Assembly: GCA_903813345.2 (NCBI GenBank)
Contig: CAIIXF020000004.1
Span: forward strand, 24,493,985-24,557,984
Source of the DNA: Owenia fusiformis
Taxonomy: Eukaryota; Annelida; Polychaeta; Sabellida; Oweniidae
Direction: 5' to 3'
Length of the DNA stretch: 64,000 nt
In this document: positions 1 through 51,600 of the stretch, one piece after another
How positions within the stretch are numbered: the stretch's first letter is position 1
Layout: every line of letters starts with the position of its first letter
The notes under the pieces: model-generated
The model's database searches: none
What the model was told of the DNA's origin: nothing
Seen by the model: only the letters and a program-made list of their open reading frames with translations
Program-made: the position numbers and the translations under genes

Positions 1-323
1 TGAATCAACTGTCTGATTTTCAGGCATTTCTGTACTTTATCTCACTATTATTTCACTCCTATCCTCTCTACTGTATAAGTGGTTTTTAAAGCAAGTGCTT
101 AATTTGCCTAATGGTCAAATTTGATCTTTTTCTAACTTTAATTTTCCTGATGACAAGAAACTTCCCATTGGGTAACATTATGAAGATGATATTTCCACCA
201 TTTAATTTTCCAAACCTGGCAAAAATTAGGCAATAAGCAAATTAAATGATAAGGCAAAATTACCACTTGGCACTATAATACAGTATCTTGCATCTAATAA
301 AACATGGCTATCTATATTTCTAG
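1..323. other. Intron or upstream sequence
   Basis: No coding signal was seen. The first 45 bases weakly resemble the dispersed repeat family A found elsewhere in the window in reverse orientation. A pyrimidine-rich stretch ending TTTCTAG at 323 is a plausible splice acceptor for the first visible myosin exon. Confidence 0.4.
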
Positions 324-600
324 TCGTCCTCGACATGATTCTCTCTCCAAAAAGGATGAATTATACGAGGGGAAACTACGTCTTGAGGAAGCTGACACCG
401 AAGATGAAAATGTGGAAGAAGAAGATATTTACTCAATGTTGTCATTGGCGCTCAGTGGAAAAGCTATTGTAGATCCATCTAGTGATGATAAAGCTTTGCC
501 TGAGTCAAGTCCCACTGATGATCTTGCATCACTTAGTCACATGACTGAAAATCTGCTACTGACTGAGCTGCATCAACGCTACTCACAATCCAGAATATAT
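324..600 (+). CDS. Myosin visible exon 1: pre-motor region and start of motor
   Basis: The encoded stretch is acidic ([14 protein letters not shown]) and leads into [14 protein letters not shown], the usual start of a myosin motor core just before the [15 protein letters not shown] segment. The 5' edge rests on an acceptor-like TTTCTAG at 319-323 and is uncertain; an ATG at 304 in the same frame is the alternative if this is a first exon. The 3' edge is a consensus GTAAGT donor at 601, phase 0, which continues exactly into exon 2. The donor region is tandemly repeated downstream. Confidence 0.75.
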
Positions 601-3600
601 GTAAGTTTATATGTTACCTTTGCCAAACATATGGTGGCAGCGTTATTCACAATCCAGAATATATGTAAGTTTATATGTTACCACTGCCAAAGATATGGTG
701 GCAGCGTTATTCACAATCCAGAATATATGTAAGTTTATATGTTACCACTGCCAAAGATATGGTGGCAGCGTTATTCACAATCCAGAATATATGTAAGTTT
801 ATATGTTACCACTGCCAAAGATATGGTGGCAGCGTTATTCACAATCCAGAATATATGTAAGTTTATATGTTACCTTTGCCAAAGATATGGTGGCAGCGTT
901 ATTCACAATCCAGAATATATGTAAGTTTATATGTTACCTTTGCCAAAGATATGGTGGCAGCGTTATTCACAATCCAGAATATATGTAAGTTTATATGTTA
1001 CCTTTGCCAAAGATATGGTGGCAGCGTTATTCACAATCCAAAATATATGTAAGTTTATATCACTGCCAAAGATATGGTGGCATAATGTTACAGCCACCAT
1101 TTTTGTGATCAACAGTCTGCGCTAGTTATGTCTTTTTGTGTTGATCAAACAAATTATATTTTCTTTTTATTTCCAGACCTATGTAGGAGACATCCTAATT
1201 GCAGTGAATCCTTTTACAATGCTATCAATCTATGGAAAGGAGGTAAGGATTTAACCTACAAAATACTCAAGCTATAGATGCCATTAAATTGCCGGGCATT
1301 ATAATTGCCGAAAGGCTCTAGAAAGCTTTTGCCGAATTTTAATTTGCCTACCTTTGACCCCTTATGTTAAATTGAATTGTTAAGCTGGGGCTATAACAAA
1401 AACTTCACCAGCTAATTTTTTTACTAGCTCTGTAAACATTATATAGAGATTTCATGCATTTTAGTCTTACTGCAATACAGTTAGTTTTGTCCTTACCAAT
1501 ATTTTCATTTTGAAAATCACACGAATAGCCACTCAGGAGAAAAAAGAAAAAAGCAATCATCAGGATTATCAGATTCATAGTATTAGTTTAATTCCTTTCT
1601 TTCCCAGGTGTCTGAAAAATACAAAAATAACCCTGAACAATCCAAAGTTCCTCACATATACGCCATTGCTCAAAACATCTACACGTCATTTTTACGAGAG
1701 CAACATTCACAGTGTTGTATTATCTCTGGGGAGTCGGGATCCGGGAAAACGGAGACGAGTAAATACCTAATACAGCATTTGTTGGCAACGACACAGAGTG
1801 AAGAAAACCAATTGAATGTCAAGTTACAACAGGTGAGTCTTCGGGTGATCATTATTTAAAATGCAAAATAGAGTGGAAAATAGTGATGTTATCAAGGAGC
1901 ATGTAAATAGGCATGAAAGTAATACACTAAATTGTATAGAGATGCAAGAAAATCAGACAGTTCATTCAAATTTTAAAGAAAAAATTGTCATTTCAGGAAG
2001 GCAAGAAATTTTGATGAAAAAAGGAATTTGGGAAAAATATAATCTCAATAAAGCTGTCACATGTAATATTTAATACATACTTTAAACACCATATAACAAT
2101 TAGGCTGCATTAATTCTAATACACCCCCCCCCCCCTTCCCCACTTCACAAACATCAGGAAACAGGAAGGAAGAAATCTTGAGAAAAATCATAATAACATG
2201 CTTTTTCTGTTATGCTAGGTGAATCCACTACTTGAGGCATTTGGAAATGCTCAGACTGTCATGAATGAGAACTCAAGTAGATTTGGCAAATACATTGAGC
2301 TGATGTTCAGTCCTGATGGCTTCGTACAGGGAGGTAGGGATGGAATATACCAATTAAAAGAATAAATATTTTTAACTTAGGATAAGTGAATTGAAATGAA
2401 TTTCTTCCAGTTTCATTTTTGTATTTTCCATTTCAAATGATACAGAAATAAAGCAGTCTTAAACATGTTCCTAATGTTAGTTTGTATATTACTTAAGGGT
2501 GCAAAATCTTGCATATTTCAGGCAAAATCCATGAATATTTACTTGAGAAATCCAGGGTAGCCAATCATAGTGAGGGGGAGAGGAACTTCCATATCTTTTA
2601 CCTCATGTTCGCTGGTCTCTCCCCAGATGAATACCAAAAATATGGACTTCTGTCTTCAGACAAACACAGGTGAGAATTTCTCTATTTGGGTCATGTTTTG
2701 AAATGCAAAATAGAGTGGAAAGGACTGGAATTATCAAGGAATATAATAGATTGGGCTGTAGTCAAAACTCTAAATTGTATAGAAATGCAAGAAAATCAGA
2801 CACTTCATTCAAATTTTAGAGAGAATGAGTGGAATTAGCAAGGAATAAACTAAACAAGCTTGTAGTCAACACTCTAAATTGTATAGAAATGCAAGAAAAT
2901 AAGACGGTTCATTCAAAGTTTGAAAAGAAAAATAGGAGAATACCCGAGAAATTGTTTGGGAAAGGATAGGCAGAAGATGTGTAGATTTCAAAGTCATGGA
3001 AGTTACATAGATGAACAAATATCCCATGCGTCACACCTCAAATGTACCTTTTTAATATGTGTAAAATTGTTATATAATTATAATGCTTGTATGTACTTGG
3101 GTCAGTCAAAAAGTTCTGTTTATTTATCTCTAACTTTGTCATTTTGAGGAATTATTTCTTGATATTTGGTACATCTATAGAACATATACATTTGTGCAAC
3201 TATTGGCTAAATATTGTATCCTGCAAATTATGTTGTCATTTTACAGATATGTCAATCAAGAGAAAGATCTCAAGTCTATGATGACAGAGGACAATCGACA
3301 GAGATTTCTAGTCATACAAGAATGCCTTAAGTTCCTGGGCTTCAGTAATAATGTAAGACAAAGGTTTCTAGTCATACCAAATGAATGTTTTAGTCATACA
3401 AGAATGCCTTAAGTTCCTGGGCTTCAGTAATAATGTAAGACAAAGGATTTTAGTCATACCAAATGAATGTTTCTAGTCATACAAGAATGCCTTAAGTTCC
3501 TGGGCTTCAGTAATAATGTAAGACAAAGGATTTTAGTCATACCAAATGAATGTTTCTAGTCATACAAGAATGCCTTAAGTTCCTGGGCTTCAGTAATAAT

Positions 3601-6600
3601 GTAAGACAAAGGTTTTTAGTCATACCAAATGAATGTTTCTAGTCATACAAGAATGCCTTAAGTTCCTGGGCTTCAGTAATAATGTAAGACAAAGGTTTCT
3701 AGTCATACCAAATGAATGTTTTAGTCATACAAGAATGCCTTAAGTTCCTGGGCTTCAGTAATAATGTAAGACAAAGGATTTTAGTCATACCAAATGAATG
3801 TTTCTAATACAAGAATGCCTTAAGTTCCTGGGCTTCAGTAATAATGTAAGACAAAGGTTTTTAGTCATACCAAATGAATGTTCCTTGTCATACAAGGATA
3901 GCTCAAGATTTAATAACAACATAAAATAGAAATATTTCAAGTAAAAGTCATTTCAGAACCAGAAAACGTTTGTACCTGGCCCTGCGGGTTGTATTCGACA
4001 ATACTACCCCTGCTCTTCAATCTATATTTCTTAATTACATTGCAGGATTTGGACAATCTATTCCTGCTTCTCTCTGCTGTACTCAATCTTGGAGATATTC
4101 ACTCCTGAATTGATAGTAACATTCATTGCATTGCAGGATTTGGACAATCTATTCCTGCTTCTCTCTGCTGTGCTCAATCTTGGAGATATTCACTCCTGAA
4201 TTGATAGTAACATTCATTGCATTGCAGGATTTGGACAATCTATTCCTGCTTCTCTCTGCTGTGCTCAATCTTGGAGATATTCACTCCTGAATTGATAGTA
4301 ACATTCATTGCATTGCAGGATTTGGACAATTTGTTCCTGCTTCTCTCTGCTGTGCTCAATCTTGGAGATATTCACTCCTGAATTGATAGTAACATTCATT
4401 GCATTGCAGGATTTGGACAATCTATTCCTGCTTCTCTCTGCTGTGCTCAATCTTGGAGATATTCACTCCTGAATTGATAGTAACATTCATTGCATTGCAG
4501 GATTTGGACAATCTATTCCTGCTTCTCTCTGCTGTGCTCAATCTTGGAGATATTCACTCCTGAATTGATAGTAACATTCATTGCATTGCAGGATTTGGAC
4601 AATTTGTTCCTGCTTCTCTCTGCTGTGCTCAATCTTGGAGATATTCACTCCTGAATTGATAGTAACATTCATTGCATTGCAGGATTTGGACAATCTATTC
4701 CTGCTTCTCTCTGCTGTGCTCAATCTTGGAGATATTCACTCCTGAATTGATAGTAACATTCATTGCATTGCAGGATTTGGACAATCTATTCCTGCTTCTC
4801 TCTGCTGTGCTCAATCTTGGAGATATTCACTCCTGAATTGATAGTAACATTCATTGCATTGCAGGATTTGGACAATTTGTTCCTGCTTCTCTCTGCTGTG
4901 CTCAATCTTGGAGATATTCACTCCTGAATTGATAGTAACATTCATTGCATTGCAGGATTTGGACAATCTATTCCTGCTTCTCTCTGCTGTGCTCAATCTT
5001 GGAGATATTCACTCCTGAATTGATAGTAACATTCATTGCATTGCAGGATTTGGACAATTTGTTCCTGCTTCTCTCTGCTGTACTCAATCTTGGAGATATT
5101 CACTTTGTCTCAGGAGGCAGGAATGACTCAGCACAAATCTCAAATATGGACCTAGTAAGAAAAGGTATGTCAAGTGCTCTACTATACCCCAAAAAATTGG
5201 ATTGTCAGTACTCGGTAGAGTGTTTGAGGTCTCACAATTTTGCAAGATATGGTCGTATTGTTGAAAATCAGTTGTTTTAAAAGACTTTAGACTTTAGGTG
5301 GCAGAAATAATTGATTTATCACTCTGGTTTAATCAATAAGGTAATGGTTTAGGCAGGGGTGTTAAACACTGCTCGTTTTACAATATATCATAGTTTAGGA
5401 TAGTGGGGATGTTTTCCCCTTTGGCATTTGTACTTACATAATGATTATTATGTCAGCACCACCTTCGCCACGAGTGGTGACGTATTGTTATAGTCTCCAA
5501 CTTTTTTGGTGGATGGTGTTCGGCATTTGCCGGTCAGCATTCGGCATCTGGCATCTGTAATAAATGGCAGGTAGTGACATTTTGCATGTTAATGGCTTGT
5601 TTGACTCTGCTTTTGTGTTTAGTTGCTTCCATGCTGCAAGTGCAAGTTGGAGAGTTAGCTGGGGCTCTTGTGTCAGAGGTGACAATAACACGGGGTGAAC
5701 AAATCAAGAAAGAGAGAAACGTGACGCAAGCTAGAGACTGCTGCGACGCCCTGGCTAAATCCTTATATGGTAAACACAGCACACATGGATTTCATAATCT
5801 AACATGTTTGATTTGGGTCATTTCCTGAAAATATAGTTCATAATCTAATCATATCATATCTCATAGAAAAATATATATGATAAGGATTTCTGATTTCTGA
5901 ATTTCAATGGTCCAACAATAACGCAAAGGATTGTCATCAATCAAATTGTACAAAACTCATTATACATAGTTTTTATAAACAGATACTTAGAATAGCATAA
6001 TAATTCTACTATTTTTGAATAATCTACATGTACAAATAAATTGAAAATTTGCAGGTCGTCTGTTCAGTTGGATTGTAAATGGCATTAACCAGATGATTCA
6101 ACCATATGATGGTTGTGGTCCTGGCCTGGAGGTTGGCATTTTGGACATCTTTGGCTTTGAGGACTTCACCACCAACAGTTTTGAACAAGTGAGACAAAAA
6201 CTTATTTCCCATTTTCTTTTATTTCAAAATATGCCTTTTTGAAGCATTTTACTCTCTGAAATTTGAATGAACTGTTTTATTTTCTGGAGTTTCCTTAAAC
6301 TTTGATGTCAATGGCATCACAAACTTTTAATAACATTTCTTTTGTTATGCATTTCCAGACTTTTCTTGCAAAACATTGAATTAACTAGTTCATTTTACAA
6401 TTTTGAGTGTTGACTACATGCCTGTTTATTTGATCCCTTACTGTTATTTCAATGACCACATCTTTAAGCTTGAGGCCCAGGACTACACAGATGAGGGCAT
6501 TCCTTGCTAATTCCACCATTTCCTCTGTAAAATTTGAATGAAGTGTCTGATTTTCTTGCATTTCTATACAATTTAGATTGTTGACTATACGCCTGTGTAA

Positions 6601-9600
6601 TTCACCCCTTACTAATGTCATTGTTTTCCACTCCATTTTTCATTTCAAAACATGACCATATTTTCAGTTATGCATCAACCTTTGCCAATGAGCAGTTGCA
6701 GTGTTATTTCAATGACCACATCTTTAAGCTTGAGGCTCAGGACAACACAGATGAGAGCATTCCTTGCTAATTCCACCATTTTCTCTGTAAAATCTGAATG
6801 AAGTGTCTGATTTCTTTGCATTTCTATACAATTTAGAGTGTTAACTACACCCCTGTATAATTCATTCCCTACTAATATCACTATTTTCCACTTCATTTTG
6901 CATCTAAAAACATGAATATATTTTCAGTTATGCATCAACCTTTGCCAATGAGCAGTTGCAGTGTTATTTCAATGACCACATCTTTAAGCTTGAGGCTCAG
7001 GACAACACAGATGAGGGCATTCCTTGCTAATTCCACCATTTCCTCTGTAAAATTTGAATGAAGTGTCTGATTTTCTTGCATTTCTATACAATTTAGATTG
7101 TTGACTATACGCCTGTGTAATTCACCCCTTACTAATGTCATTGTTTTCCACTCCATTTTTCATTTCAAAACATGACCATATTTTCAGTTATGCATCAATC
7201 TTGCCAATGAGCAGTTGCAGTGTTATTTCAATGATCAGCTCTTCAAGCTAGAGGCCCCGGATTACACAGAAGAGGGCATTCCTTGCTAATTCCGCCATTT
7301 CCTCTGTAAAATTTGAATGAAGTGTTTGATTTTCTTGCATTTCTATACAATTTAGAGTGTTGACTATACGCCTGTATAATTCACCCCTTACTAATATCAT
7401 TGTTTTCCACAACATTTGGCATTTCAAAACATGACCATATTTTCAGTTATGCATCAATCTTGCCAATGAGCAGTTGCAGTGTTATTTCAATGACCACATC
7501 TTTAAGCTTGAGGCCCAGGACTACACAGATGAGGGCATCCCAAGCTGTGACATCACATATACAAACAATCAGCCAGTTGTAGATCTTTTTCTACAGGTAG
7601 GTACACTTGCCCAGGGTGGCAAAAATCTTATCAGTTAACAAGTATAGCGGGGCCACTTTAAACTGAACATCTAAAAATGTTGATTTTCTCAATTTGCGAG
7701 TAGGGCAAAAACACAAAAGAAAAACTTGATTTGAGATAAAAAAAAAGTCTAGTTTAAATGAACTTTTCTTCATTTTTGACCCAACTATACAATTTATACT
7801 TTTTATCAGGTTTATATTGTAACTGCACGTCTGTTGATTTAACTCATTTGTTGCTTATTTTTCTTTTAACCACCATGACATATGCAGAAACACACTGGCA
7901 TCTTCTCACTAATGGATGAAGAAAGTCGTTTCCCCAAGGCAACTGACAAGTCCTTAGCAACCAAACTACATAAAGGACCAGGTACATTCTACTGAAGCAC
8001 TGTGGAGCATGTTAATTTTGCTGATTGATAAATGCACTATCATTCAACATATTGTGAAAGAATTACAACTGACTTGATAATCATTGATTATGATCAGAAA
8101 TAGTGAATGCAACATAAATGTTGTTATATGTAATCTATGTTATTAACTGATTTAGAATTAATACATGGATTTTTCAGTTATTCATATCCCTTTAGATATT
8201 GCTTCAGGTCTCAAATACAATCTTGCTATGAAGATATGTATGTCAATGTTGTCTAGTTGTGGATGAATTATTGAATCTCTGTAAACATGAAATTGATTCA
8301 ATTATTTATGAATTATACAATAAACTTCTACACTGCCTTACTTAAAACAAACTGTTTCTTTATTCAGGGGAGGCTGCACCAAGCATCTACATCACCCCTA
8401 AAGATCAGGGGCTGACATTTACTATCTGCCACTATGCGGGTAAAATCAAATACAACGTAAAAGGGATACTGGATAAGAACAGAGATACACTGCCAATGGC
8501 TATTATGTTCACTATGAAAAGTGAGTGTATCTTTTTGATTTATTCTCTTGCCAATGGAAGAGGAGGAGAAACCCCAGGGTTCAAAGATGACATACGCTTA
8601 TAATGTAAATCTGTATTGAGATGACATCGTCGCTGATTGGTTTAGCGAGTCGATCGTTGATTGGTTTAAAACTAGGTCAGAATATGAAAGTCGCAATTTT
8701 GTTAACAAATATACGTACTTCCGGGAAAGGAGGTGCGCGAAGGAGGAAATCGTATGTCATCAATTGAATCATGGGGTTTCCCTCCTCTTTGCCAATGGTA
8801 TAGAGGGTTTGTGTGTACCTCTCCTAGTTTATGCTGTGGAGGGGGGGGGGCACAATGCCATTTAACACCTTGTATATACAATGCAATGTAATATATTTTA
8901 ACATTAGGATAGGTGTAATAAACAATGTAATAAGTAGTTCATTGATCAAAAAGACCTGAATAACCTAATAAAAACACATTCATGATTTTGGTTCACTCAG
9001 TGTTCAAAAGAATGTATTTGTGAAATTTTTCCATGTTGCCCTCATAATTCGTCCTCATTATTTGGATAAATCTGAGCAAAAGTAAATTGATTGATAAAAT
9101 TTTTCCCTAGAATGTACCTTTTCATCTTTTAAGTTACAAATTATGATAAAAGATTACAGTAGTTAATAGTTATTTATTTTTACGAGCTATCACGTGTTTT
9201 CCACAAGTATCTGATGAATTATTTATTTGACCTGCATTTTCAGCCAGTAACAGTCTTTTGATTAAGGAGTTATTCCAGTCCAAAGTAAAGAGAACGGGTT
9301 CTCTTGCCCCCAGTACAAGGCAACAGCGCTCACGCAAAGCACCAGAACCAAAGTCAGCATTTGACTTTTTCAGACGCAAGAGAAACTCACAGAATGAAAG
9401 CAAGGTTTGTGATAATTGATGATTTAACTGCATGGTTTTGAAAGAATAAGTCTTGCTCAAAGACTGTATCCACCCCCCCCCCCCGTCACCTTTACTCTCT
9501 TTACCTGGCAATATACAGAGAGAAGGATAAAGGGGGGGGGGGTACAGGGTCTTTTAAGCAAGACTCATGAAAGAATATTTTTTGACCATGTTTTGCTCGA

Positions 9601-12600
9601 ACTCCCTACTATCCATATAACAAATGTATATTTGAAAATTTTGAAAAAATTCATAGAATGGAAGAAATCGTAGTGTAGTGTAGTGTATTGTAGTGTAGTT
9701 TATACAACAAAATTCAAAAAGGTATCAAAATACTCTTTATCACAATTATGTACTTTAATTTTCAGGTGAAGAGAAGTCGCAGAGAGAGACCAGTGATAGG
9801 TACAGAAAGAAAGGGCCCTGCTACCATAGCATATCATTTCAAGGTAGGTCAGAGAGAGGGAGAGAGAGACACCAGAGGCTACTGAATATCTTTGTCTATT
9901 ATCTATTATTGTAATGCTAAGTAAAATTTCGTACAAATTCAATACTGAAACATGTGTGAAACGTGTGTATTTCATCAAGAAATGAACAAGTATCTGATTC
10001 ATGAAATTTTTATTGTATTAACCATTTCCCTTTTAATAATACTTTGCGTTGAACAAGAGGGAGAGAAACCCCAGGGTTCAAAGATGACATACGCTAATAA
10101 TGTAAATAATGAGATGACATCGTTGCTGATTGGTTTAGCAAGTCAATCGTTGATTGGTTTAAAACTAGGTCAATTTGAAAACTTTGAAATCCAAGATGGA
10201 GGGAAGTATAAATATACGTACTTCTGGGAAAGGAGGTGCGCGAAGGAGGAAATCATATGTCATCAATTGAATCATGGGGTTTTCCCTCCTCTTCGATGAA
10301 CATGATGCTTACACGCCAAACAGACTCTACAATTTTAGATTGTACCAAATGATATGAATCATGAAATTCACCATTTTTCAGAACTCCTTAGCAGAGCTAA
10401 TGAGCAAGATGAACCGAAGTGTCCCTCACTTTGTGCGCTGTATTAAGCCAAACATGGCCAAAGTGGCTGGCAAGTATGACCCGGAGTATGTACTACGACA
10501 ACTCCGTTATACTGGAATACTCGAGACTGTGCGTATCAGGAGGGAAGGTTTCTCTATGAGACTGCCATTTGCTGAGTTCCTTACCAGGTGAGAATACATG
10601 TATATGAGTGTTGAATTAAGGCGGGCACCAAAAGTGTTGAGTTAAGGCGGGTCTAGAGAAATCATTTTTCTGTTGCCACCACAAGAAGTGACATATTGGT
10701 ATAGTCGCCAACTTTTTTGTGGATGGTGTTTAGTGTTTTTGTTTGGTGTTCAGCAGTTGGAGTTCATTGGTCCTTGTCTGTAACAAATGGCAGGTGGTGA
10801 CATTTTGCATTTTAATGCCTTGTTTTTCCTGTGTTCAGAAGATGGTTCATTCTCAGAGACTCATAGTAGATAAATATATTTATTTATATCTATGTCATCT
10901 TCCAGGTACAATGTTATTGCCGTATGCGCCTTACCCATGACGAGTGAAGCGTCAGATCTACAGCAATAGACCCAAGCTTTGCAATATTGTGACATAGAGA
11001 AATACAAGGTTTAGTTTTATTTTGCAGGTACAATGTTATTGCCGTATGCGCCTTACCCATGACGAGTGAAGCGTCAGATCTGCAACAATGCACCCAAGCT
11101 TTGCAGTATTGTGACATAGAGAAATACAAGGTTTAGTTTTATTTTGCAGGTACAATGTTATTGCCGTATGCGCCTTACCCATGACGAGTGAAGCGTCAGA
11201 TCTACAGCAATAGACCCAAGCTTTGCAATATTGTGACATAGAGAAATACAAGGTTTAGTTTTATTTTGCAGGTACAATGTTATTGCCGTATGCGCCTTAC
11301 CCATGACGAGTGAAGCGTCAGATCTGCAACAATGCACCCAAGCTTTGCAGTATTGTGACATAGAGAAATACAAGGTTTAGTTTTATTTTGCAGGTACAAT
11401 GTTATTGCCGTATGCGCCTTACCCATGACGAGTGAAGCGTCAGATCTACAACAATGCACCCAAGCTTTGCAATATTGTGATATAGAGAAATACAAGGTTT
11501 AGTTTTATTTTGCAGGTACAATGTTATTGCCGTATGCGCCTTACCCATGATGAGTGAAGCGTCAGATCTGCAACAATGTATCCAAGCTTTGCAATATTGT
11601 GACATAGAGAAATACAAGGTTTAGTTTTATTTTGCAGGTACAATGTTATTGCCGTATGCGCCTTACCCATGACGAGTGAAGCGTCAGATCTGCAACAATG
11701 TATCCAAGCTTTGCAATATTGTGACATAGAGAAATACAAGGTTTAGTTTTATTTTGCAGGTACAATGTTATTGCCGTATGCGCCTTACCCATGACGAGTG
11801 AAGCGTCAGATCTGCAACAATGCACCCAAGCTTTGCAGTATTGTGACATAGAGAAATACAAGGTTTAGTTTTATTTTGCAGGTACAATGTTATTGCCGTA
11901 TGCCCCTTACCCATGACGAGTGAAGCGTCAGATCTGCAACAATGCACCCAAGCTTTGCAGTATTGTGATATTGAGAAATACAAGGTTTAGTTTTATTTTG
12001 CAGGTATAATGTTATTGCCGTATGCGCCTTACCCATGATGAGTGAAGCGTCAGATCTGCAACAATGCACCCAAGCTTTGCAATATTGTGACATTGAGAGA
12101 TACAAGGTTTAGTTTTATTTTGCAGGTACAATGTTATTGCCGTATGCGCCTTACCCATGAAGAGTGAAGCGTCAGATCTACAACAATGCACCCAAGCTTT
12201 GCAGTATTGTGACATTGAGAGATACAAGGTTTAGTTTTATTTTGCAGGTACAATGTTATTGCCGTATGCGCCTTACCCATGAAGAGTGAAGCGTCAGATC
12301 TACAACAATGCACCCAAGCTTTGCAGTATTGTGACATTGAGAGATACAAGGTTTAGTTTTATTTTGCAGGTACAATGTTATTGCCGTATGCGCCTTACCC
12401 ATGAAGAGTGAAGCGTCAGATCTACAACAATGCACCCAAGCTTTGCAGTATTGTGACATTGAGAGATACAAGGTTTAGTTTTATTTTGCAGGTACAATGT
12501 TATTGCCGTATGCGCCTTACCCATGAAGAGTGAAGCGTCAGATCTACAACAATGCACCCAAGCTTTGCAGTATTGTGACATTGAGAGATACAAGGTTTAG

Positions 12601-15600
12601 TTTTATTTTGCAGGTACAATGTTATTGCCGTATGCGCCTTACCCATGAAGAGTGAAGCGTCAGATCTACAGCAATGCACCCAAGCTTTGCAGTATTGTGA
12701 CATTGAGAGATACAAGGTTTAGTTTTATTTTGCAGGTACAATGTTATTGCCGTATGCGCCTTACCCATGAAGAGTGAAGCGTCAGATCTGCAACAATGTA
12801 TCCAAGCTTTGCAATATTGTGATATTGAGAAATACAAGGTTTGTACATTCTACCTATATTGGAACATCATTGAATACTGACATGGTATATAAGTATGAAG
12901 TTGCATTAAATAGATAGTTTGTGTATTTTTTTTATTATGAAGGAAATAAAAAATATGTTAAAAAAAAGAAAAAGTTACATTAAAAGGTATTGCATTATTG
13001 AATTGCATTATATTATATTGTATGGCAAGTTATTGTATTATTGTATTGTATTGCATTATATTGTATTGTATTGTATTGTATTACATAATATGGGATTGCA
13101 TTATATTATATTGTATTGCAGTTTATTGTATTGTATTGCATTATATTGTATTGTATTGTATTGCATAATATGGGATTGCATTATATTATATTGTATTGTA
13201 GTATATTATATTATATTGTATTGTATTATGTTGTATTGTATTTTATTATTAACTTATTTGTCACTTTCAGGTGGGCAAAAGCAAGCTGTTTTTGCGGTAC
13301 TGGCATGTTGATAAACTGGAAACAATCTCGCGAAAGTTGGAGTCAAAGGTCATAACGACTCAGAGAGGTATGTACTAATAAGGGCAACACTAGATACATC
13401 GGGTGACTCAAATAATGATTATCAATAATGCATAGACTCTGTTTGTTTATTTGTATATTATAAGGAAGAGGATTTTGAATCCACTTTTTTCCAGATACAC
13501 ATTAAGAATTAAGACACTTTATATTATGAAATTGAAATACGTATTTATTTCAAATATATTTCATATATTTATGTTTGGTTCTGTCACAAACAGTGAAATC
13601 CTTTAGAAAATCATGTTAATCATATTTTATTCAATGTTGTTTTTTAAGACCTCTTATACTAAATGTAATAACTGGCGCCATTCTAACCAACTCAGCTGCT
13701 TATACACAGCCAATATAATTCGACGCCGTTTCGGCATCGAACAAATTTGGCACCGTTCCGGCACCGTTTCGACACCGTTCCGGCACCTAAACCTTTCGAC
13801 ACCAAAATTTGCTACCGGACTAGTCAGTCCATTTGGTGCCGAAACGGCACCGAAATTTGGCACCGAAACGGCGTCGAAAATCAGATTGCATTTTGGGGGT
13901 GTATATATTTTATGTACTCTGCTGCTACAACTATATAAACCGCTTATTTGTTCTCAGTATGGAAAGGCTGGATGCAAAGAAAAAAATTCATGCGCATATT
14001 GGATATAAAACGACGCCAGGATGATTTTGTGTCACGATTTCTTACTGCCGTGGCAACAATGGGCGAGAAGCATTATGACATCATAATACAATCGAGGGAA
14101 CATGATACTGAACGTCAACAAGCAAAGGATGCGCCACCACCACCAGAACCAGAAGTTGAAATGAGGACAAACCTGAATGATTATAGAAAGTAAGTAAAAA
14201 TGACTTAAGAAAACAAACCCCCATAATTCATATAAATTCAATGTAATGTCAACCATTATTGTCTCATATTACTTGGTGAATGCTCCATTATAGATGTAGA
14301 TTAAAAAATTGTCAAAAAGTAAAGTTTGCTATTTAGTCTCAAAAAATTATTTATTTATTAGTTATTATTTGTATTTATTTGTTTGTTTTGTTTGTTTATG
14401 TATTGTAGTCTTGGAACCACACAAAGCAATGGTTATCATCCAGATATATTAACTTTAATTTTTTAATTCTCTTGCTAGTTTGATATCGGTTGGGAGCTAC
14501 AACATCTTACATTATATTGTCATTACCACACTGTGAAACAAATAATATCTCTACTGGTAATTCACATGGATAAATACTGTAACCCTGTTTTATTATGTTG
14601 TTCTGTATTTCATGTTTTTGGGCTTATTTGCGCAACCGAGAGTTCCATCAAAATTGTTTTTAATAATAGATAACTGAGAATGATTGACTTGTTTGGATCA
14701 GACAAGTTTTATCAATTATATCATATGTGAAATATAATTATTCGCAATGGTAGCAAGGGTTACAGTGTTTTAGTTGAATCATTCAGCATGGAATGTTTGC
14801 TGTAAATAGAATTGGGTCAGTGCACAGGTCAAGGTCAGGTCAAGGTCAGATTCCTGAGGTCATGTCAGGTAAATTATAAACAGTCAATAAATGATGATGT
14901 TAACTTCCAATGATGGAAGTTTGGTTCCTAACATAAGTGAATCAACTGATCTTAACCAATCAGTGATGACGTTAATTCCCAATGACATGAGATTGGCTCT
15001 CCCCATAATTGAATCCATTGAACTATGGAAATCTCCTAATCTGGCCTGAGTAACTATGGTTGCCTGGCAACACGACCTATTTCTATTTTTAGTTAAGCTC
15101 ATGATTTTTGTAGCTAGCGCTGAATATTTTAGTTTGCTTCATAGATTTGGAATATGATTTAGCTCAGGATGAAAAATGGTACAAAGACAGGCTATTTTTT
15201 CAAATGCGTAATAAAGTTAGGACCCTTAGGGGATACTTTATATTTCATAGATATAGCTCATTTAGATCGTCGAGAAAACTGGAGATTACGTAGAGAATAG
15301 GCACGACCATTGAGAAAATCTAGGGAGGGTTGTTTTATTATACACAGCGGCATTCAAACTATGTAAACAGTTTTTCCAAATAAAATATATTTGCCAGGTG
15401 CAAGATGTCATAGGTTGTAAACATTATCAGCATTGTTTGGAAACATTGTTTCCTACAACGATGATATTATGAATCTAGCCAATATACGAGTTGCCTTATT
15501 TAATTATATCCCGTTCTGAGGCCATTTTTTGGAAGCACAAGCGCGAATACTATAATAAGCATTGTTTTGAAACATTGTTTCCTACAACGATGATATTATG

Positions 15601-21600: not shown

Positions 21601-24600
21601 ATTTTGCAATAATAAAGTGAATGTTTTTCCGGTTCTTTTCTTTTGACATCTACTCAGTGTGGACATTTTGAAGTGATCTAAACAACATTCTACCCTTTTC
21701 CTGAAAGTACTCGTTCACTTCATCTTCTCATAGAGTTTGTATTAATTCACAAAATTCTATAAATCGGAACAAGAATAAACCTGGATACTTTAATTTAATT
21801 ATATTTGAATGTATCATTTTTTGTTTAACTCTACGTTTAGCTTCACAACAAGTCACAACAGGGATCAATTAGTTTTTATACATTTTTTTCATTCAAAGCA
21901 ATGCATATGAAAATATTTTGTGCTGATATGTGTTTTGATCTTTTAACTGCTATAATCATTAATAGCAAGGGATAGAAGGGATTTAGAATCTGGGAATTAG
22001 TTCATATGGTGTGACAAAAATGAGTACATGAGTACCAAATTTGAATCTATGATATATCATAATCTAGTAATGGGTCAAAGTAAAATAAAACAATATTTAT
22101 GATTAAAATATATGATAGTACTATATTAACCCCATCACCTTTTGCTCTTATCTATAAGCCTTATATATAAAAGTCAAGTGTTCTTGGCTGGTGTGGACTG
22201 GCATGATTAATTGATGTTATAAAATCATAAATTCATATTTGATTAGAAGTTTAGCAAACCCCCCCCCCCCCTAAATAAAATTTTAATGTTGAATAAAACC
22301 TGTCTAAGTGGAACACCTTTGGTACCTCTAAATAAGTTCCACTTTGAAGGTATTCCACCTACAGTGTTTCATCTAACAATAAGTTACTTATAGAGATGTT
22401 CCCGTTAAAGAGGTGTTCCATGTACAGGTTTTACTGTTTATTATAATGGATATACCAGTTCATGTATCACATATGTGACACTTTAGATTAATTGTTTCTG
22501 TCTTTTACACAAATTATTCCAAACACCAACTCCAGCAGATTTGTTATCTCTGGTTCTCAATTGAAATATATTTACACAAAAGTAACGCAAATGTTTTTCA
22601 ATTGATAAGAACGATTTGCATCATTAAAGTCCAAATTGTGTTATTGTTATCTCGTCTATCCCCACTCACATTTTACTCTTTGAACTTCAATTCAAATATA
22701 TTCCCATTTCTATCTCCAACCAACAGATGTCCTTGATGGTTCAGAACTACTGCACTTGGGAGGTGAACACCATCAGCCTCAATGAGGAGGTGTCTGAGGA
22801 ACACACCACTTGGACTAACCAGACTCACTCTGTGGTTCTTGCTATCAGCCATTACGATGTGATCACCATCATTGCAAATGCCACATGGCCTTTCCAACTT
22901 ACCATCATCTGAGCCATAAGAGCCATACTGCATTAGCTTCCTTCCCTTTCTGTCTATCACTGTGATACAGTGATTATCCCAGTCAGAGATCACCACATTT
23001 TTGCTTTCATTAACTGCAATGTATGGGGAAGTACTTTGAAATAGTCTATTAGGAGTTGTGTCCAACACTGTACCTGTTGGGTAATCAATGAAGGAGATAG
23101 ACTTAGTCTTAGCATCAGCTACTACTAACTCACCATCACTGGTAAATGCAATACCACATAGCGTTTTGAATGATGTTTTGATATCACGTTTGTGCTCCCC
23201 TCTCTGAGTGTAGATACTGATTACACCAGTACTGTTAGTGAATGCAAAGCAGTTGTCTAGGGTAGAAGCAACCTGCCTTGTAGTAATAAGTCCATGTACT
23301 GTCTTGATCAACCTTGAGTTGTCGTAGAACCTGATCTTATTATAACTCACAGCAGCAAGACTAGAAGTTCCCACTACTGCAAGATCTCTTATCCATTGCA
23401 TACTGTTACTTAGATCAGTAAGTTTTGTTTTCTTCTTCAGTTGTGGCCAAGAGAGAAATCTGGAAGAATCTGCATCATGATCTGAAGTTGCAGAACTTGC
23501 ATCAAAAGGAATACTGATTGTAGAAACACTCCTTGCGTGATTAATTGTTGAAACAGTTGCAGGTGCATGTGTTTCAGTTGGATCATTCTGAGCAGTATTT
23601 GCAAGCTGTGCAACAGGTCTTGGAGTTGCAGAACTTGCATCAGAAGGAATACTGATTGTAGAAACACTCCTTGCGTGATTAATTGTTGAAACAGTTGCAG
23701 GTGCATGTGTTTCAGTTGGATCATTCTGAGCAGTATTTGCAAGCTGTGCAACAGGTCTTGGAGTTGCAGAACTTGCATCAGAAGGAATACTGATTGTAGA
23801 AACACTCCTTGCGTGATTAATTGTTGAAACAGTTGCAGGTGCATGTGTTTCAGTTGGATCATTCTGAGCAGCATTTGCAAGCTGTGCAACAGGTCTTGGA
23901 GTTGCAGAACTTGCATCAGAAGGAATACTGATTGTAGAAACACTCCTTGCGTGATTAATTGTTGAAACAGTTGCAGGTGCATGTGTTTCAGTTGGATCAT
24001 TCTGAGCAGTATTTGCAAGCTGTGCAACAGGTCTTGGAGTTGCAGAACTTGCATCAGAAGGAATACTGATTGTAGAAACACTCCTTGCGTGATTAATTGT
24101 TGAAACAGTTGCAGGTGCATGTGTTTCAGTTGGATCATTCTGAGCAGCATTTGCAAGCTGTGCAACAGGTCTTGGAGTTGCAGAACTTGCATCAGAAGGA
24201 ATTCTGATTGTAGAAACACTCCTTGCATGATTAATTGTTGAAACAGTTGCAGGTGCATGTGTTTCAGTTGGATCATTCTGAGCAGTATTTGCAAGCTGTG
24301 CAACAGGTCTTGGAGTTGCAGAACTTGCATCAGAAGGAATACTGATTGTAGAAACACTCCTTGCGTGATTAATTGTTGAAACAGTTGCAGGTGCATGTGT
24401 TTCAGTTGGATCATTCTGAGCAGCATTTGCAAGCTGTGCAACAGGTCTTGGAGTTGCAGAACTTGCATCAAAAGGATAGTTGATGAGAGAAACACTCCTT
24501 GGGTCAATATTTGCAGAATCATCCACATGTTCATAGAAATCAGTTGGATCATTCTGAAAAGTATTTGTATGCTGTGCAAAATGTCCTGGAGCTGCAGGAA

Positions 24601-27600
24601 TGTCATCCAAAGGATAGTCGATGGAAGAAACACTCATCCCTTCATAAATTGCAGAATCACTTAGTGCATGTATATCAGATGAATCAATCTGCAAAGGATT
24701 TGCAAATATATTGTCCTCATTTGTCTCTCTCGCTAGACTTCCCAGTGTTACCTCAATAACACATGGCTTGAATTTAAGGGGAACTATAGTGGAAGATGGT
24801 AAGTATACTGGTATAGGCAGTCCTTGGTTTTTCACGGCTATCAGTTGTTTCATTTTTTGAGTATTGTCCTTGAGTGACTGAATGTGTGTCACAAAACTCT
24901 CTACGAGTGCTGTAGACATCTGAATGTCTTCTATCTGGGCTACTTTTGACCTGACTTCCTTATTGTGGTATTCATTGATTTCATTTTCCCAAGCGTGAAA
25001 AGCATCGTCAACATCTGGGGTCAGTAGCCTTGCTTCTTGTATGTGGTTTCGATTTTCAATTAATTGGTCGAATAAGTACCGGCTTTCCTGCTCCAAGTAA
25101 CTTTTGTCACTTTCTGCTCTGTAGATAGCATCTCTGAGTGATGACAATTGTTTATTTGTATTAATTTCTACTTCAAGCTGCAGAGCATCAGCAGCTTCAT
25201 CGATATCCAAAAAGTCATGTCCATTGTGTAAATACGGGAAGCAAGTAAAGCAAATGAGACTGTTGTCATCTTTACAGAATAGTTTCAGTGGTTCACCAGG
25301 ATGGAGGTGGCAAGTTTGACTGGTGGAACTACCTATCTCCATCAATGTATTGATAAGGAAGCTGGCTGGTAGAGCTGAAGTTCCCTCCAGTGGTTCATCC
25401 CATTCTTCCCGGCACACAGGGCATCGCAATGGCTCCTCAAGTTCAGTGTTTTCTACCAAGCCATCAACACACCCAAGACAGAACGAATGATGACATGGCA
25501 GCAATTTAGGATTGTCAAAATGTCCATAGCAAATCATGCATTTCAGAATGTCTTGGAATCTTTCATCTTGAGTTGAAGATGCAGCCATTTTGTAACTCAA
25601 GATTGAACTGTTAGTTACTCAAAGTACGATCTGATTTCATCATCACTTGGGTGTTGCTGATATAATATGTTATCAAGTTTAAATTCAGTACAACTGGTGT
25701 ATAGATTAGAGTAGCATAAATAAGTCAATTAAAAAAATCATAAATATCTTCTAAATCTTATCTTGTTTGATTTGTGAGTATTTATGATGATACCCTGGCA
25801 TAAAGACTGATTGTATCTTACGTAGCATGTATACGGAAATAACTTAGTAAATGATCAGTCTTTTAGTGCCTTTTAGTTTATTTATATCAAAAGTTAATTC
25901 ATATTTAGGCATATCTATTTGGTTTAAATTGTTTGATTGATTTGACTAAAAATACCAGTTATAAAGTGCTCTACTTAGTCATACTCTCTGTATAAAATAA
26001 AGGACCATGTATGTTATTGCAATTATTTTTAGACAATCATATCTTTTGCCTTGAGTATTTAATATGGACATGATTCAGTCATTATTAAACTTTAAAATGT
26101 TTATGTCACCGACATTGTTTCAAAAGTCCATAACCATGCGTTAAACCGTATATACAACATATTTTTTTTTTTTTTTCACAATTTATTTCATTTTTGTTCA
26201 CATCATACATTCAATTATTGTTAAAACATATTGTAATCTGAAAAAGTATGCACCTTAGAATGTTAACTTAAATAGTATTTTGTATCATTAGGTGATCCAG
26301 TACATATATAGTTGTATTATTTGTAACAGATTTATTTGTTTTGTGTTATATGTGTGGTATGAACAGAAGCAAAACAATTTAGCATTCATACCTCATTCAT
26401 TCTGCCATTCATTTTCACTCATTCACACATTCACCCAAATTTTACTGAACAGTACCTACATATAGTTAAATCTTATAATATTTTATTTATTTCTTGTAAT
26501 TTATAATTTCCCTTAAAAAATGTTGATTTTGTAATATAATCTTTAAAATATATTTTAAATCCAACAAAGGTTACATCTATCTTATCAATAAAACTTCTGT
26601 ATATATAATGTTTCATCAAAATAATAGCTAAATTTAAAACATTAAATTCATCATCCTTAGGTTGATGGCCATATAATATATCTTTGTCACTTAGTTTAAT
26701 TTTCTTATCACTTACCATAAGAGTTGTAAATTCTTTCCACAGTAATTGAGCTTTAATGCAATCAACTAACATATGTTTGATTGTGTGTCTTTGTTGACAA
26801 TATGGACAAAGATTTGTATCTGCTATATTCATTTTAAATAGTTTATCTTGACACACTAAAATATTGTGTAGAATTTTGAATTGAAAAATTTGAATATTTG
26901 AGTCCTTTGTAACTTTGTTTGCCAGTAGAAAATACCATTTTATCTCCTGCTCATCTATGAATTGTTTTATTTTAAACAAAGAGGTGGGTGCTTCGAATTC
27001 TCTCTGATTTAATATTGCATATGCCTTTTTACATGTTACATTCTCAACAGACACCGACTTTTGCTCACTACTTGCATTATTTGAATCACTTGATTTTCTT
27101 AAAATATCTTTCCATTTTATTGGTATTGCCATTTTTATGCTGTTGTATTCCATATCTTTTATCTTTAACTCATATGATTGTTCTATTTCATTTTTCTCAA
27201 TAAACTGACCATTCATATCGACGAGATGTTTTATTTTATTAATGGACTTTGCATTCCACTGTTTGTAAAAAACTGGTTTATTTCCTATCAGGATGTTCCT
27301 GTTATTCCAAATTATTTGCTCTTTGATACTTGCTTTGTCAGTTGGTACTTTTTGGTCTATAATTATACTCCATGTTTTTAAGATTTCTTGATAAAAGGTT
27401 GAAACATTTGATAAGTCTAATGATTTATAATCATAATTTGATTCAAATATGATGTTGGTTCCAAAATTAGCAAACATTATGTTGGGTATGGTTTTCCACA
27501 GCCCTGCCTCTTTGTTGGTCAGTCTTTTTACCCATGCTGCTTTTAGGGCTTGATCCATGAGCTTGAATTCAACCATTTTTAGCCCTCCATCACAAATATT

Positions 27601-30600
27601 TCCAATTAAAGTTTTCTTCTTGATTTTAGGAGGTTTATTCCTCCAAATAAATTTTTGAATAACATCATCAATTTCCTTAATATATTTCTCTGGAATCACT
27701 GAAGTTGCTGAAATGTAAGTAAGCTGGGATATACCAATAGATTTGACTAAAAGAATTCTGCCTTTTATACTTAGATCTCTTCCATTCCATGTATTAAGTT
27801 TTGACTTCATCACTTGTATTTTATCTAAAATGTTATTTTTGATGTGAATTTGTTCATTATATGTAAAACAATATCCAAGGGCTTTAGCTTGTTTAACTGT
27901 TTTTAAGTCATTGATACTATCATTTTTGTTTTTTGCATTTCCTATCCACATCAGCTCAGATTTATTTTTGTTCAATTTAAGGCCAGAACAAACTTCGAAT
28001 TTTTCTAAGATTTTCATTATTTCTGTAACAGATTCTTCATTCTTAAGTATAACTGTAACATCATCGGCGTACTGACATGCCTTTATTTCCTGATCTTGAA
28101 TTGTAACACCCTGAACATTTGTATTTCGTTTCACTGCAAGGCAGAGAATCTCAATGACCATTATAAAAAGTAATCCTGACAGGGGGTCGCCTTGTCTTAC
28201 TCCTCTGTGAACTCTAAAAAAGCTAGAGGACTCACCATTATTAATGACACAACTGTTTGAATTTTTATATATACTTTGAAAAAAATTAATGAAAATATTG
28301 CTAAATCCAAAGGCTTCCAATGTTTTTTCAATAAAATTCCATTCGACAGAATCGAAAGCTTTTTGAAAGTCTAAAAATAATAGAAGACCTTTTTGATTAT
28401 TGTTATTTGTGTAATCCATAATGTCTTTGATGAGCCTGACATTTGTCCCAATAAATCTATTCATTACGTATCCTGTTTGTTCCGGGCTGATAATCTTTGG
28501 AAGTATTCCTCTTAATCTCTGTGCTAAAATTTTTGTTAACAGTTTATAATCACAATTGAGTAGTGTTATGGGCCTCCAGTTTGCTAAATTATGTCGATCT
28601 TTTGACTTTTTTGGAATTAAACTTATAATACCTCTTTTCTGACTAGAACTTAATTCTCCTTGTACTAAAGCATGATTAAATGTGTTAACAATATCATTTT
28701 TAAGTTCATCCCAAAATTGTAAATAAAACTCTGATGGAAGACCATCTGTCCCTGGGGATTTTCCTTTCTTGAAAGATTTCAACATTTTATAACACTCCTC
28801 AAGACTTATTTTCTTTTCACATTCTAGTTTGTCAACATTGTTAATTTTTGGTATATCTTCTTGATTTAGAAACTCATTTGTAACACGTTTGATCATATTT
28901 CTATCTTTATCTATGTAAGATGTATAAAGATTTTGATAAAATTCTTTTTGGGCTGTTAATATATCTCTTGGATCTGTAATTTCATTCCCATTAGCCGTTC
29001 TCAACTTTGTTATTACTTTATTAACAGAATTAGATTTTTCCAGGTGAAAAAAGTATTTCGATGATTTTCCCCTTCTTCATACCACCTTGCTCTACTCCGT
29101 ATTATACTTCCTTTTTTTGTGCTCTTGAATCATTTCTAATTTTAGTTTCAATTTGTTCAAATTGTTAATATTTTCCTGGGATGATAATCTGTCAACTTCA
29201 ATTTGTGCTAAATCAGCATGCTTAAGTAGTCTCTTTTCTTCATCTTTTCTTTCTTTTGCTCTTTTCTTAGAAAATTTTATGCTTGCTTTTCTTATTTCCA
29301 TTTTCAAAAAATCCCATATAACTCTAGTGTCATCCTTTTCATTGAACATTTTCCTTGTTTCTTCTATTTGTTTTTTGATGCATTCTTGGTATTCTTTATC
29401 CTGTAGTAAGCTTGTGTTTAGTTTCCAAAATCCTGGTCCTTGTTTTCTGTAATCTTTTGTTTGTAGCGTAAGAGTTGTTGCTAGGTGGTCTGGAGAAGGT
29501 GCAGTAAGTATGTCTGCTTCGATGACATCATCAAGAAAATTAGAGACAAAAAAATAGTCCAGGCGACATTGTATTTTATAAGAAGGGTTATGCCAAGTGA
29601 ATCTCTCTTGTGTTGGGTGCTGTCTTCTCCATATGTCTACCAGGCTGTTGTTGACTAATATATTGTTTATTTCTTCAATGACCAGTGCTTTTTCCTCTAT
29701 GCTTCTGCCCCCTTTCTTATCAATGTTCCTGAGACAACAGTTAAAATCGCCACCTATAATAATTTTATCAGATTGTTGTTGTTGTAAAATATCATCAATA
29801 TCTTTGTAAAAAGTAACTTGCTGTTTAATATCATTTGGGGCATATACATTCAATAAACAATGCGTTTCATTTTCTATTTTCATATTTATTAATATAAATC
29901 TCCCATGTTCATCTGCCTTTACATTGCTAATTTCATAATCTAATCTCTTTGATAGCAGAACCATTACACCTTTACTATGATTTGTACCATGACTATAAAG
30001 ACATTCACCATTCCACTCTGCTTTCCATTTTGTTTCTATTGCCTTAACACTGAATGTCTCTTGTAAAAAACAAATATCAACACACTGATTTTTCAGCCAT
30101 CTAAAAATGTTTTGTCGTTTTCTTGATTTATGTAACCCTCTCGTATTCAATGAGACCATTTTAAATTTATACCCCATATTCAATCTACAGATGATTTAAA
30201 TAAACCCATTCAGTATACATCAATACTCTCACTCACATATTCATTCATTCCAATCACCCTCAAATATATCAAACAAAACAAAATGAAAATGTATTACCTA
30301 AAACACAATTTTATTTATTACCAGAAGATTTCCTAAAAAAAACAAGGACAATTAAGAGATATATATATATATACAAATTGTACGGGACTTTATTTGGTCC
30401 GATATTTGAACCGACCACGCTTGAATAACATATAAACAATTGTGGTGTTTAAGTCTATGATATTTATATCATCCCTGGATGTTTTAATTAAACATCCAGT
30501 GCTGCCATAATTATCTTGACTTTTTTCCATTTCCGGAGAGCATTTTAAAAATGTGAACTGGTTACTGTTTAAAAAACTATTCGCTTTGATAAACTAGTTA

Positions 30601-48600: not shown

Positions 48601-51600
48601 AGATGAGATAGTGACTATCGTTATAAGCAACATGTAAACCTTGATAATGTCAATCTAGAATTTTGGATAACTAATTTAGAGAAACAATTCGGAGAATTAA
48701 GGATAAAGTAAAAATGTCGGTAAACCAAGCAGACGATTATTCTCAACCAGGATATCAAAGACATTTACGCAGATATACATATCACTACAGTCACGAATAT
48801 GATAATGACCCAGGGACTAGCGTTGATGAAGATTATGATCAGGCTGGGGACCGATCAGAATATCAGTCCTTAAACTTTAATAACAATGGTTCCCATAGCA
48901 ACAATGGTCAACCTGACAACAATGGTCACCATGGTAATAATGGATACCAAAATAATGGTCATCATGATAATGATAGATACCAGAATAATGGTCACAATGA
49001 TAATAATGGTTACCAAAATAATGGTCATCGTGGTAACAGTGGTCATCAACGATCCAAGTCATGTTACTATGGTGATTACAATAATTACCAAGCCCAGAAT
49101 AGCTACCAAGGACAATTTGCGGGTTACCAGGGTCAAAATGGATACCATGGTCAAAATGGTTACCACTTTCAAAATGGTCCCCAGGGTCAAAATGGTTATC
49201 CAGATCAGAATTGTTACCAAGGACAATATGGTTTCCAAGACGACCTGGTTGGAGACCCAACTGATAATTTTTGTCCACAGCAACGGTACAGTTGCTATGG
49301 AGACAATTGGGATAAGTTTGTTCAGTCTGGATACAACAACTATGGTTGGGAACATGGCCAACATGCCTTACTGTTGGTAAGAACATATCTAGTTTAATTG
49401 CATGGTAATTTTTCTCATGTTTACAGAGAAATTATAGCATTTTTCCGTGAACTTATTGAACGACCTGGTATATGTCTTGAAAACTACTTCAGTAGGAGTT
49501 TCAGATAAATCAGTCAAAGAGTCGAAAATGTTTTCCCTAACTTGATAAATTTACTTTTAAATTCGATTAAATGGTCAGGGAGTTCTATTGGCAAAAAAGT
49601 AAAAATATGGTCGTTGGGGTTATGAGTTGGGTGAAAAAGTTTAAAACAGCTTAGACATTAAAACTGGTACTTCCATTGTATAGGAATAATATCTTTAAGA
49701 TATATATGCATTTACATATACTCTATCCACCTGTAGTACTTTAGTAATGTCATACGTAGTACTTAACACTAAAATTATGATTTAACCAGACTTGAATCCT
49801 TGAATTCCCTTAATTCTATTCCAAATTCACCCCATTCCAAAATCAGTGTTATTCCATTCCTACACAACAATTATTCCGTCATTGGCCAGGAAAATGTTCT
49901 TATCAGCATTAAAATTGTAAAATAATTAGTTATAGTCAGAGTGTAGTGACAATCAGAGGGTGGTGTGGATTCAGGGTTATAATTAGTAATATTAAGATCA
50001 ATAAAGTACAAACTTGTATTGATCTTTGGTCCAAGGGTATTTCAATTCTTTCCATAGCTTTCCATTCATAAGCTTAGCGAGGCCCCATCTTGAAGGATGC
50101 AAACTTGCCCTGTTGGTGGCGGATATTTTAAAAATGATGTTTAGATATTTACAAATGTATAGCCTCTGGACCATACTAACCCCCTCACCCCCCCCCCTTA
50201 TCTACTTCAGCACACTTGTGGGTGGGTGTAATGGTGGAGGGGGGTAGCTAGACTAACAAATGTATTACCACGTGATAGCTAGATAAATATATGTTCAGAT
50301 TGGTATGGTATTATTTGTACTTTATTGGTATGGTAAATGTTGTCAGCACCGATCCTTTCTACTTATTTAAAGCATATAATTTGTGTAAATTGGTTTTAAA
50401 ATTTTCAAAGAGCCATTATCTGAAAAATTCTATGGCACGTAACTCGTCATGTTTAAGGGTTAATTCTTTTGTTACGAAAAATCTTGTCACTCTGTTATCT
50501 CGCCACGTTTAGGGTCAAATTTAGCGACAACAAATCTTGACATGCTAGGTAAGACGTTAAAACTAATACACTCAACCTGGTAAGGTTGGCGTGCCCCCAT
50601 AAATCATACAAATATTATGACCTTACAATCAATCACGACATACCGTCAGACACATCATCTTTTAATTGAACAATTACTCCCTAGCGGGGAATAAATAATT
50701 TTTAAAACACAGTCACGCTGACTTTATCCAAGCTATTTAGTGTCTGAATTTATAAAGTAGTTCTGTGGTTTCAATGATTTGTCCCTATATCAATCAGTAT
50801 TTTGATTGTTTTTATATTATATATTATAGAATAATTTTTTTTGGAAGATGATCAGCTATGAACGACTCAAATTGTGGCAATTAACTGGGGTGTAGGCTAG
50901 TGAAAGAAACTCATAAACTTTATTGGTTTTTAAATGATTTCAAGACTAAAGCATGGACACGTAGGGATACGGGAAGAAAATTGCTTGATATATAAAATAT
51001 ATTCAAAATTGGATTAATGATAGCTAATATAGGAGAGAGACCAGGCAATAGAAAAGTAAAAAATGTTTCGGATTATTAAAATTGAAAAAAAAGAAAAAGT
51101 GAACAGATAATGATGTATTGTTATTAGGAAACAACATTATCCAGGATGTCATAGTAAATCACTATATGATCACTTTCATAATACTCAAAACAGGATTATT
51201 CTATAAAATAATCTTTTTTGTTGTCAAGATTCTAGCAACGATTTCTTTTATACTGTCAAATCCCCAAAACAGGATTATTTCATCAAAACACATGTTCGGT
51301 GTCTCAAATTAGACTATAAGTAAAAGATATATAAGCATTATATATTTAGACATCAATTGGATAGATTATTGACTTAGGATAACTAAGAAGTAAACAAAAA
51401 GTAAGATTTCATACATAAAACAATAAAGCATCAGAATAGCATATAACAATGGAGTTCAAAGCGCCACCTGGACCCATCCGGGGATTATAAAGCATATAGT
51501 AAAGTGTATGGGAATTTATAATGTGTATAGTAGAATGTATGGCAAGTTTGTTTGGTGTAACTGTCAATGTTTGGTATGGGAGACACAGAACTGCGGATCT

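Follow-up and report, generated by a model that had tools for sequence, protein, structure and literature searches.

The window is the whole stretch of DNA that was analyzed, 64,000 nt of an Owenia fusiformis contig with a GC content of 34%, taken from a genome of 498 Mb. On its plus strand lies a myosin motor gene, whose product matches Pfam entry PF00063 over profile positions 1 to 679 of 679 (E = 8e-206) and aligns best with the structures of myosins VIIa, XV, and X. Position 304 is a putative start, and the gene runs past position 14189. Two open stretches within 10 kb upstream encode ankyrin repeats (best Pfam E values of 3e-12 and 1.7e-11), so ankyrin repeats lie ahead of a myosin motor, as in class XVI. 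Because of these upstream ankyrin exons, the gene would suit a class XVI-like myosin, an assignment made from the order of ankyrin repeats and motor rather than from a class tree, and the ankyrin stretches and the motor presumably form one gene. A search of NCBIfam added nothing. The features of the locus discussed below are as follows.

304 to 14189, plus strand: motor gene of the myosin family; its 18 exons read as a single open frame, 876 codons long, when copy 16 of array A5 is used
583 to 1082, plus strand: array A1, at the donor edge of exon 1; the 64-nt unit supplies 8 donors, and the complete copy comes first
3305 to 3896, plus strand: array A2, at the donor edge of exon 6; the ∼83-nt unit supplies 7 donors, and the complete copy comes first
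4034 to 5104, plus strand: array A3, at the acceptor edge of exon 7; the 91-nt unit supplies 12 acceptors, and the last copy alone is complete
6442 to 7538, plus strand: array A4, at the acceptor edge of exon 10; the 260-nt unit supplies 4 acceptors, and the complete copy comes last
10382 to 10587, plus strand: exon 15, which exits in phase 2 into array A5
10906 to 12838, plus strand: tandem array A5, exon 16 of the gene model, 16 exon copies and 15 spacers with a period of 122
10906 to 11008, plus strand: copy 1 of A5, with its own intron acceptor (TTCCAG) and an in-frame TAG at codon 21
11009 to 11027, plus strand: first of 15 identical spacers, GTTTAGTTTTATTTTGCAG, the rest following every 122 nt up to 12717 to 12735
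12736 to 12838, plus strand: copy 16 of A5, with donor AAG/GTTTGT, the strongest of the array; predicted main copy
13271 to 13367, plus strand: exon 17, entered in phase 0

We then analyzed the anatomy of A5. A sequence-only reading of this DNA had described sixteen tandem 103-base exons separated by 19-base spacers, and both the positions of copies and spacers and a Tandem Repeats Finder (TRF) run (15.9 copies, 97% matches) agree with the exon count. The copies, of 103 nt each, occupy 10906 to 11008, 11028 to 11130, and so on to the last one, and the 19-nt spacer is repeated exactly at a constant step of 122, but 15 times and not 16. Every copy is preceded by CAG and terminates in AAG, followed by GT. 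The view that the spacer is donor and acceptor at once holds inside the array but not at its ends, where the final donor (GTTTGT) and the first acceptor (TTCCAG) differ. The array is entered in phase 2 and left in phase 0, as had been proposed, and with copy 16 the frame stays open over all 18 exons. The exon aligns inside the structures of myosins VIIa and XV, in keeping with the position in the motor first suggested for it, and, in the alignment with myosin XV, it directly precedes the VGKSKLF segment, a region that we take to be the converter.

The two copies carrying TAG are copies 1 and 3 (11150 to 11252), which are identical to each other and have the stop at the same codon; the diagnostic codons listed earlier (TGC ACC, TGT ATC, and ACG/ATG/AAG) are also present as described. 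The other 14 of the 16 copies are open in the correct phases and encode 7 distinct peptides, which differ at four codons (8, 12, 22, and 32). Over all 16 copies, the amino acid identity ranges from 0.91 to 1.00, with a mean of 0.95. Twelve of the 103 exon sites vary versus none of the 19 spacer sites, an invariance that could hint, weakly, at constraint on the spacer. Three groups of copies are identical (1 and 3; 2, 4, and 8; 11, 12, 13, and 14), and these blocks indicate local expansion. As in a variable number tandem repeat (VNTR) or minisatellite, the units of A5 follow each other head to tail, are nearly identical, and include local blocks of identical copies. It also shows adjacent homologous exons, each with an acceptor and a donor and of equal phase, as in a mutually exclusive exon cluster.

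The sequence-only reading had not included the other arrays of this gene, which change how A5 is read. Within the same 14 kb, arrays A1 to A4 each straddle one exon edge and contain one complete exon, the remaining copies being truncated; in all four, the outermost copy alone corresponds to the whole model exon. The truncated copies of A3 terminate in GDIHS followed by a stop, and the first two copies of A4 have one extra base each, which shifts the frame. In A1 and A2, the internal units have AG right before the repeated piece, and they may, judging from these bases, contain micro-exons of 24 or 41 nt.

More widely, such exon-edge arrays recur in this one animal genome: including A5, we found a total of 21, located in myosin, kinesin, dynein, SNF2, and ubiquitin protease (USP) genes. 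For arrays outside the gene that holds A1 to A5, edges were assigned by visual inspection of the complete copy. The 16 arrays outside A1 to A5 are given here by genomic stretch.

Myosin stretches, junction counts: L001 (upstream ankyrin exon), 6; L002, 7; L007, 9; L011, 4
Kinesin genes, junction counts: L020, 18; L021, two arrays of 4; L026, at least 4, reaching the end of the stretch
Kinesin stretch L028, junction counts: at least 5 (reaching the end of the stretch), then 4 and 17
Dynein genes, junction counts: L034, 18; L036, 2; L039, 3
SNF2 gene, L047: 4.8 copies by TRF
Ubiquitin protease gene, L048: 11.2 copies by TRF

In A5 alone among the 21 arrays, the unit encloses an entire exon of the gene model. 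For a 122-nt unit placed at random in the myosin gene, the probability of containing a whole exon is ∼2%, so one such unit among 21 arrays is unsurprising. Searches with the ABC and AMP-binding families gave no regularly spaced exon matches among the best 19 of 194 and the best 14 of 186 candidates scored, respectively. In L048 (773 to 2451, sense), the start of a ubiquitin protease exon recurs about 11 times as a 150-nt unit in an open frame of 666 aa; since the unit stays in frame, read-through would yield a protein with a repeated segment. In six acceptor-side arrays (A3, A4, L020, L021 2434, and L028 1 and 2802), the truncated copies run into an in-frame stop no more than about five codons past the real exon; the stop comes later in L047, and L001, L021 1084, and L048 have none such. 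These early stops, read by eye, are possibly due to chance in AT-rich sequence.

The A5 array is real, and chance is ruled out as its origin. That the assembly expanded a single exon might be suspected from the perfectly even period and the very high identity, but the copies carry their own variants, arranged in blocks, the flanks are unique, and many arrays of other periods exist in other genes. When exon 15, intron 15, and copy 1 were used as a DNA query, one A5 locus was returned among the best 40 of 2039 candidates scored; the matches elsewhere among these 40 were confined to a dispersed repeat from intron 15, and no second haplotype of the locus was among them in the one assembly searched. 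Misassembly is therefore unlikely, and we rate it as very improbable. The dispersed repeat, at 10659 to 10840, has at least 40 further matches elsewhere, with 77 to 86% identity.

We also evaluated whether arrays are overrepresented at exon edges, by placing units at random in the myosin gene, which alone supplied the exon density, and by counting as straddling those that extended at least 10 nt over an edge; depending on the unit, the probability of straddling was 0.08 to 0.70. The comparison was restricted to units of at least 40 nt and left out the arrays that had brought in their own locus (A5, L020, L034, L047, and L048), as well as arrays of the window outside the myosin gene, where the exons are not known; only some of the non-edge arrays were inspected residue by residue. 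At 1.9 or more copies, 16/46 arrays straddled an edge versus 14.5 expected (P = 0.36). With copy number and identity cutoffs that were chosen after inspection of the data, the counts were 15/33 versus 10.3 expected at 2.5 or more copies (P = 0.04), 14/18 versus 4.8 expected when at least 90% matches were also required (P = 2.6e-6), and 10/12 versus 3.0 expected at 95% matches (P = 1.9e-5). Edge arrays were more homogeneous than other arrays (Mann-Whitney P = 7e-5). Since the excess needs a copy number or identity cutoff to be significant, we dropped a positional bias toward exon edges and claim no bias in array formation: formation is not clearly more common at exon edges, and the edge arrays are more uniform.

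We then considered which A5 copies could be spliced, scoring the splice sites with small matrices of 17 sites each, the donor matrix being made from the gene's 17 other donors and the acceptor matrix wrongly taking in the start of exon 1. The internal donors score 2.9 bits versus 7.6 for copy 16, within the range of the 17 other donors (−0.7 to 12.2). The internal acceptor, at 13.8 bits, is the best in the gene, and that of copy 1 scores 9.6. The hexamer TGTGAC, which by eye fits the branch-point consensus of animals, occurs in each copy that precedes an internal acceptor, 35 nt upstream of that acceptor's end; as a branch point, this candidate would also bar the joining of neighbors. To our knowledge, spliced introns as short as 19 nt occur only outside animals. 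It had been proposed that a message can take only one copy, or 3n+1 copies. This is correct for the frame; the short spacer, on the other hand, bars only the joining of neighbors, and joining copy i to copy i+2 leaves an intron of 141 nt, below the 188-nt minimum of the gene model, which is not impossible. As 103 is not divisible by three, a message with two non-neighboring copies joined would be out of frame. Judging from frame and spacer, it is likely that each transcript contains exactly one A5 copy. Copy 16, the only one with a better donor, is most likely the main copy and the best single bet. Several copies could nevertheless be used, given the best-scoring acceptor and the 14/16 copies open in the correct phases. 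If splicing took a random copy for each message, near-equivalent copies would be mixed with little consequence and nonsense messages lost; the open copies and strong internal acceptors would allow this, but the internal donors lie 4.7 bits below the last one, and we consider such mixed use fairly unlikely.

The variants among copies were then compared with those of truncated, dead copies in 17 of the 20 other arrays (all except L021 1084, L047, and L048). Rows with more than 20% mismatch were removed (one each from L028c and L034); L036 and L028b are off frame, the former adding no variants and the latter one, counted as nonsynonymous. Expected synonymous shares assumed that transitions are twice as likely as each transversion. 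In A5, 7 of 13 codon variants are synonymous versus 23% expected (P = 0.017); in the dead copies, the corresponding figures are 27 of 54 and 24.6% (P = 5e-5), and the two shares do not differ (Fisher P = 1.0). Because the dead copies have an equal share, the synonymous share of A5 does not speak for the use of individual copies, and we ruled out the excess as proof of copy function. The A5 copies show no sign of separate selection for different jobs. The bias in the dead copies likely results from turnover with the used copy, their variants having once been, or going to be, in the exon. Exon and intron parts within units showed no consistent difference in conservation; this comparison is made less sharp by indels and by exon parts extending past the unit.

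These results bear on the earlier suggestion that a choice of variants tunes motor output. A functional mutually exclusive array, offering up to 14 open converter copies, would agree with the complete units in the right phases, with the exclusion of neighbors by the spacer length, and with the distinct peptides and their four variable codons; moreover, the converter is a site of variable exons in arthropod muscle myosin (PMC2257972). What A5 lacks is the diverged and maintained protein variants of such a cluster: its copies have a mean amino acid identity of 95%, 2/16 are nonsense, and the synonymous share equals that of dead copies. The internal donors are weak, and no complement of the spacer with 3 or fewer mismatches was found in the 64-kb window outside the 15 spacers themselves. 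Docking or selector RNA pairing, which some such clusters have, was sought in this one form and accordingly rejected as a candidate. Regulated choice of converter variants is thus possible but unsupported, and we hold it to be quite improbable.

We favor, with moderate confidence, the reading that A5 is a turnover-prone, VNTR-like tandem array, that its unit covers an entire exon by coincidence, and that one copy, most likely the last, is spliced. Local tandem duplication would have multiplied a unit made of one short exon and both its splice sites, and turnover with the used copy, through unequal exchange or conversion, would keep the array homogeneous. Splicing would pick one copy per message, as neighbors could not be joined over 19 nt, and the other copies, two of them nonsense, would be near-equivalent spares or inert. 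A bolder proposal, which we regard as doubtful, is that homogeneous splice-site arrays are a large class, renewed from and feeding back into the used exon as a reservoir periodically exposed to selection, with the whole exons of A5 interchangeable and several of them expressed.

A large cluster of apparently mutually exclusive exons also exists in the same genome. It lies in a muscle-type myosin gene (C9:37986009-37994334; L016 and L017) and comprises 12 copies of one myosin-head exon region (approximately profile positions 27 to 81), located 326 to 1941 nt apart, start to start, a normal intron spacing. Their amino acid identity averages 70% (36 to 98%), as measured on trimmed matches that differ in length. 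This cluster resembles conventional alternative exons, and A5 clearly differs from it. Dscam is likewise a mutually exclusive cluster of adjacent homologous, diverged exons.

Arthropod muscle Mhc genes have 3 to 5 variants of a converter exon, of which the 3'-most differs at the donor (PMC2257972). A5 resembles these clusters in having adjacent homologous exons that encode part of the converter; the Mhc (PMC2257972) and Dscam variants are diverged, whereas A5 combines ∼95% identity, 19-nt spacers, and nonsense copies. Exon 2 of Schistosoma mansoni SmPoMuc is, like A5, a single exon in tandem and homogenized, with up to ∼20 copies, and its authors favored gene conversion; its units are ∼1 kb long, include flanking introns, and contribute more than one repeat type per transcript, whereas the frame of A5 favors one copy (PMC2576457). 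In OGDH, the duplicated exons 4a and 4b exclude each other through a branch point near the donor (PMC7969005). Mutual exclusion of neighboring A5 copies would similarly depend on the layout of the intervening sequence; the OGDH case involves two exons (PMC7969005), unlike A5, whose candidate branch point is a consensus match by eye. The nearest earlier report that we found concerns human genes in segmental duplications, where tandem repeats lay at the exon-intron boundaries of 162 exon alignments (PMC2812944). Like those variable internal tandem repeats, the arrays described here straddle exon edges and alter gene structure. The human repeats vary between recent paralogues, in contrast to the present arrays, which reach 18 copies, occur in motor and other genes, and include one unit made of a whole exon with its splice sites (PMC2812944). 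In the open-license literature searched, judged by titles and the beginnings of abstracts, we recognized no report in which exon-edge arrays were described as a general property of an invertebrate genome.

Together in one gene, A5 and the donor-only and acceptor-only arrays offer a natural test of how one splice site is chosen among equals. A protein-like bias of the variants in truncated copies would make turnover between the used exon and its spares measurable, and arrays that varied between individuals would be a little-noticed source of splicing variation.

The window contains further repeats outside the myosin gene. At 51516 to 52075, a 145-nt unit is present in four copies, each an open stretch ending in GTAAGT, with a similar, diverged piece near 52220; this repeat may be another exon array. 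A 55-nt unit at 61116 to 61671 occurs about ten times, nearly unchanged, and each junction has GTGAGG. On the minus strand, a RING/B-box/NHL gene contains about eight in-frame coding repeats of 138 nt (23486 to 24597), and at 26476 to 30195 lies a LINE-like element with a pair of neighboring open stretches that encode endonuclease and reverse transcriptase domains.
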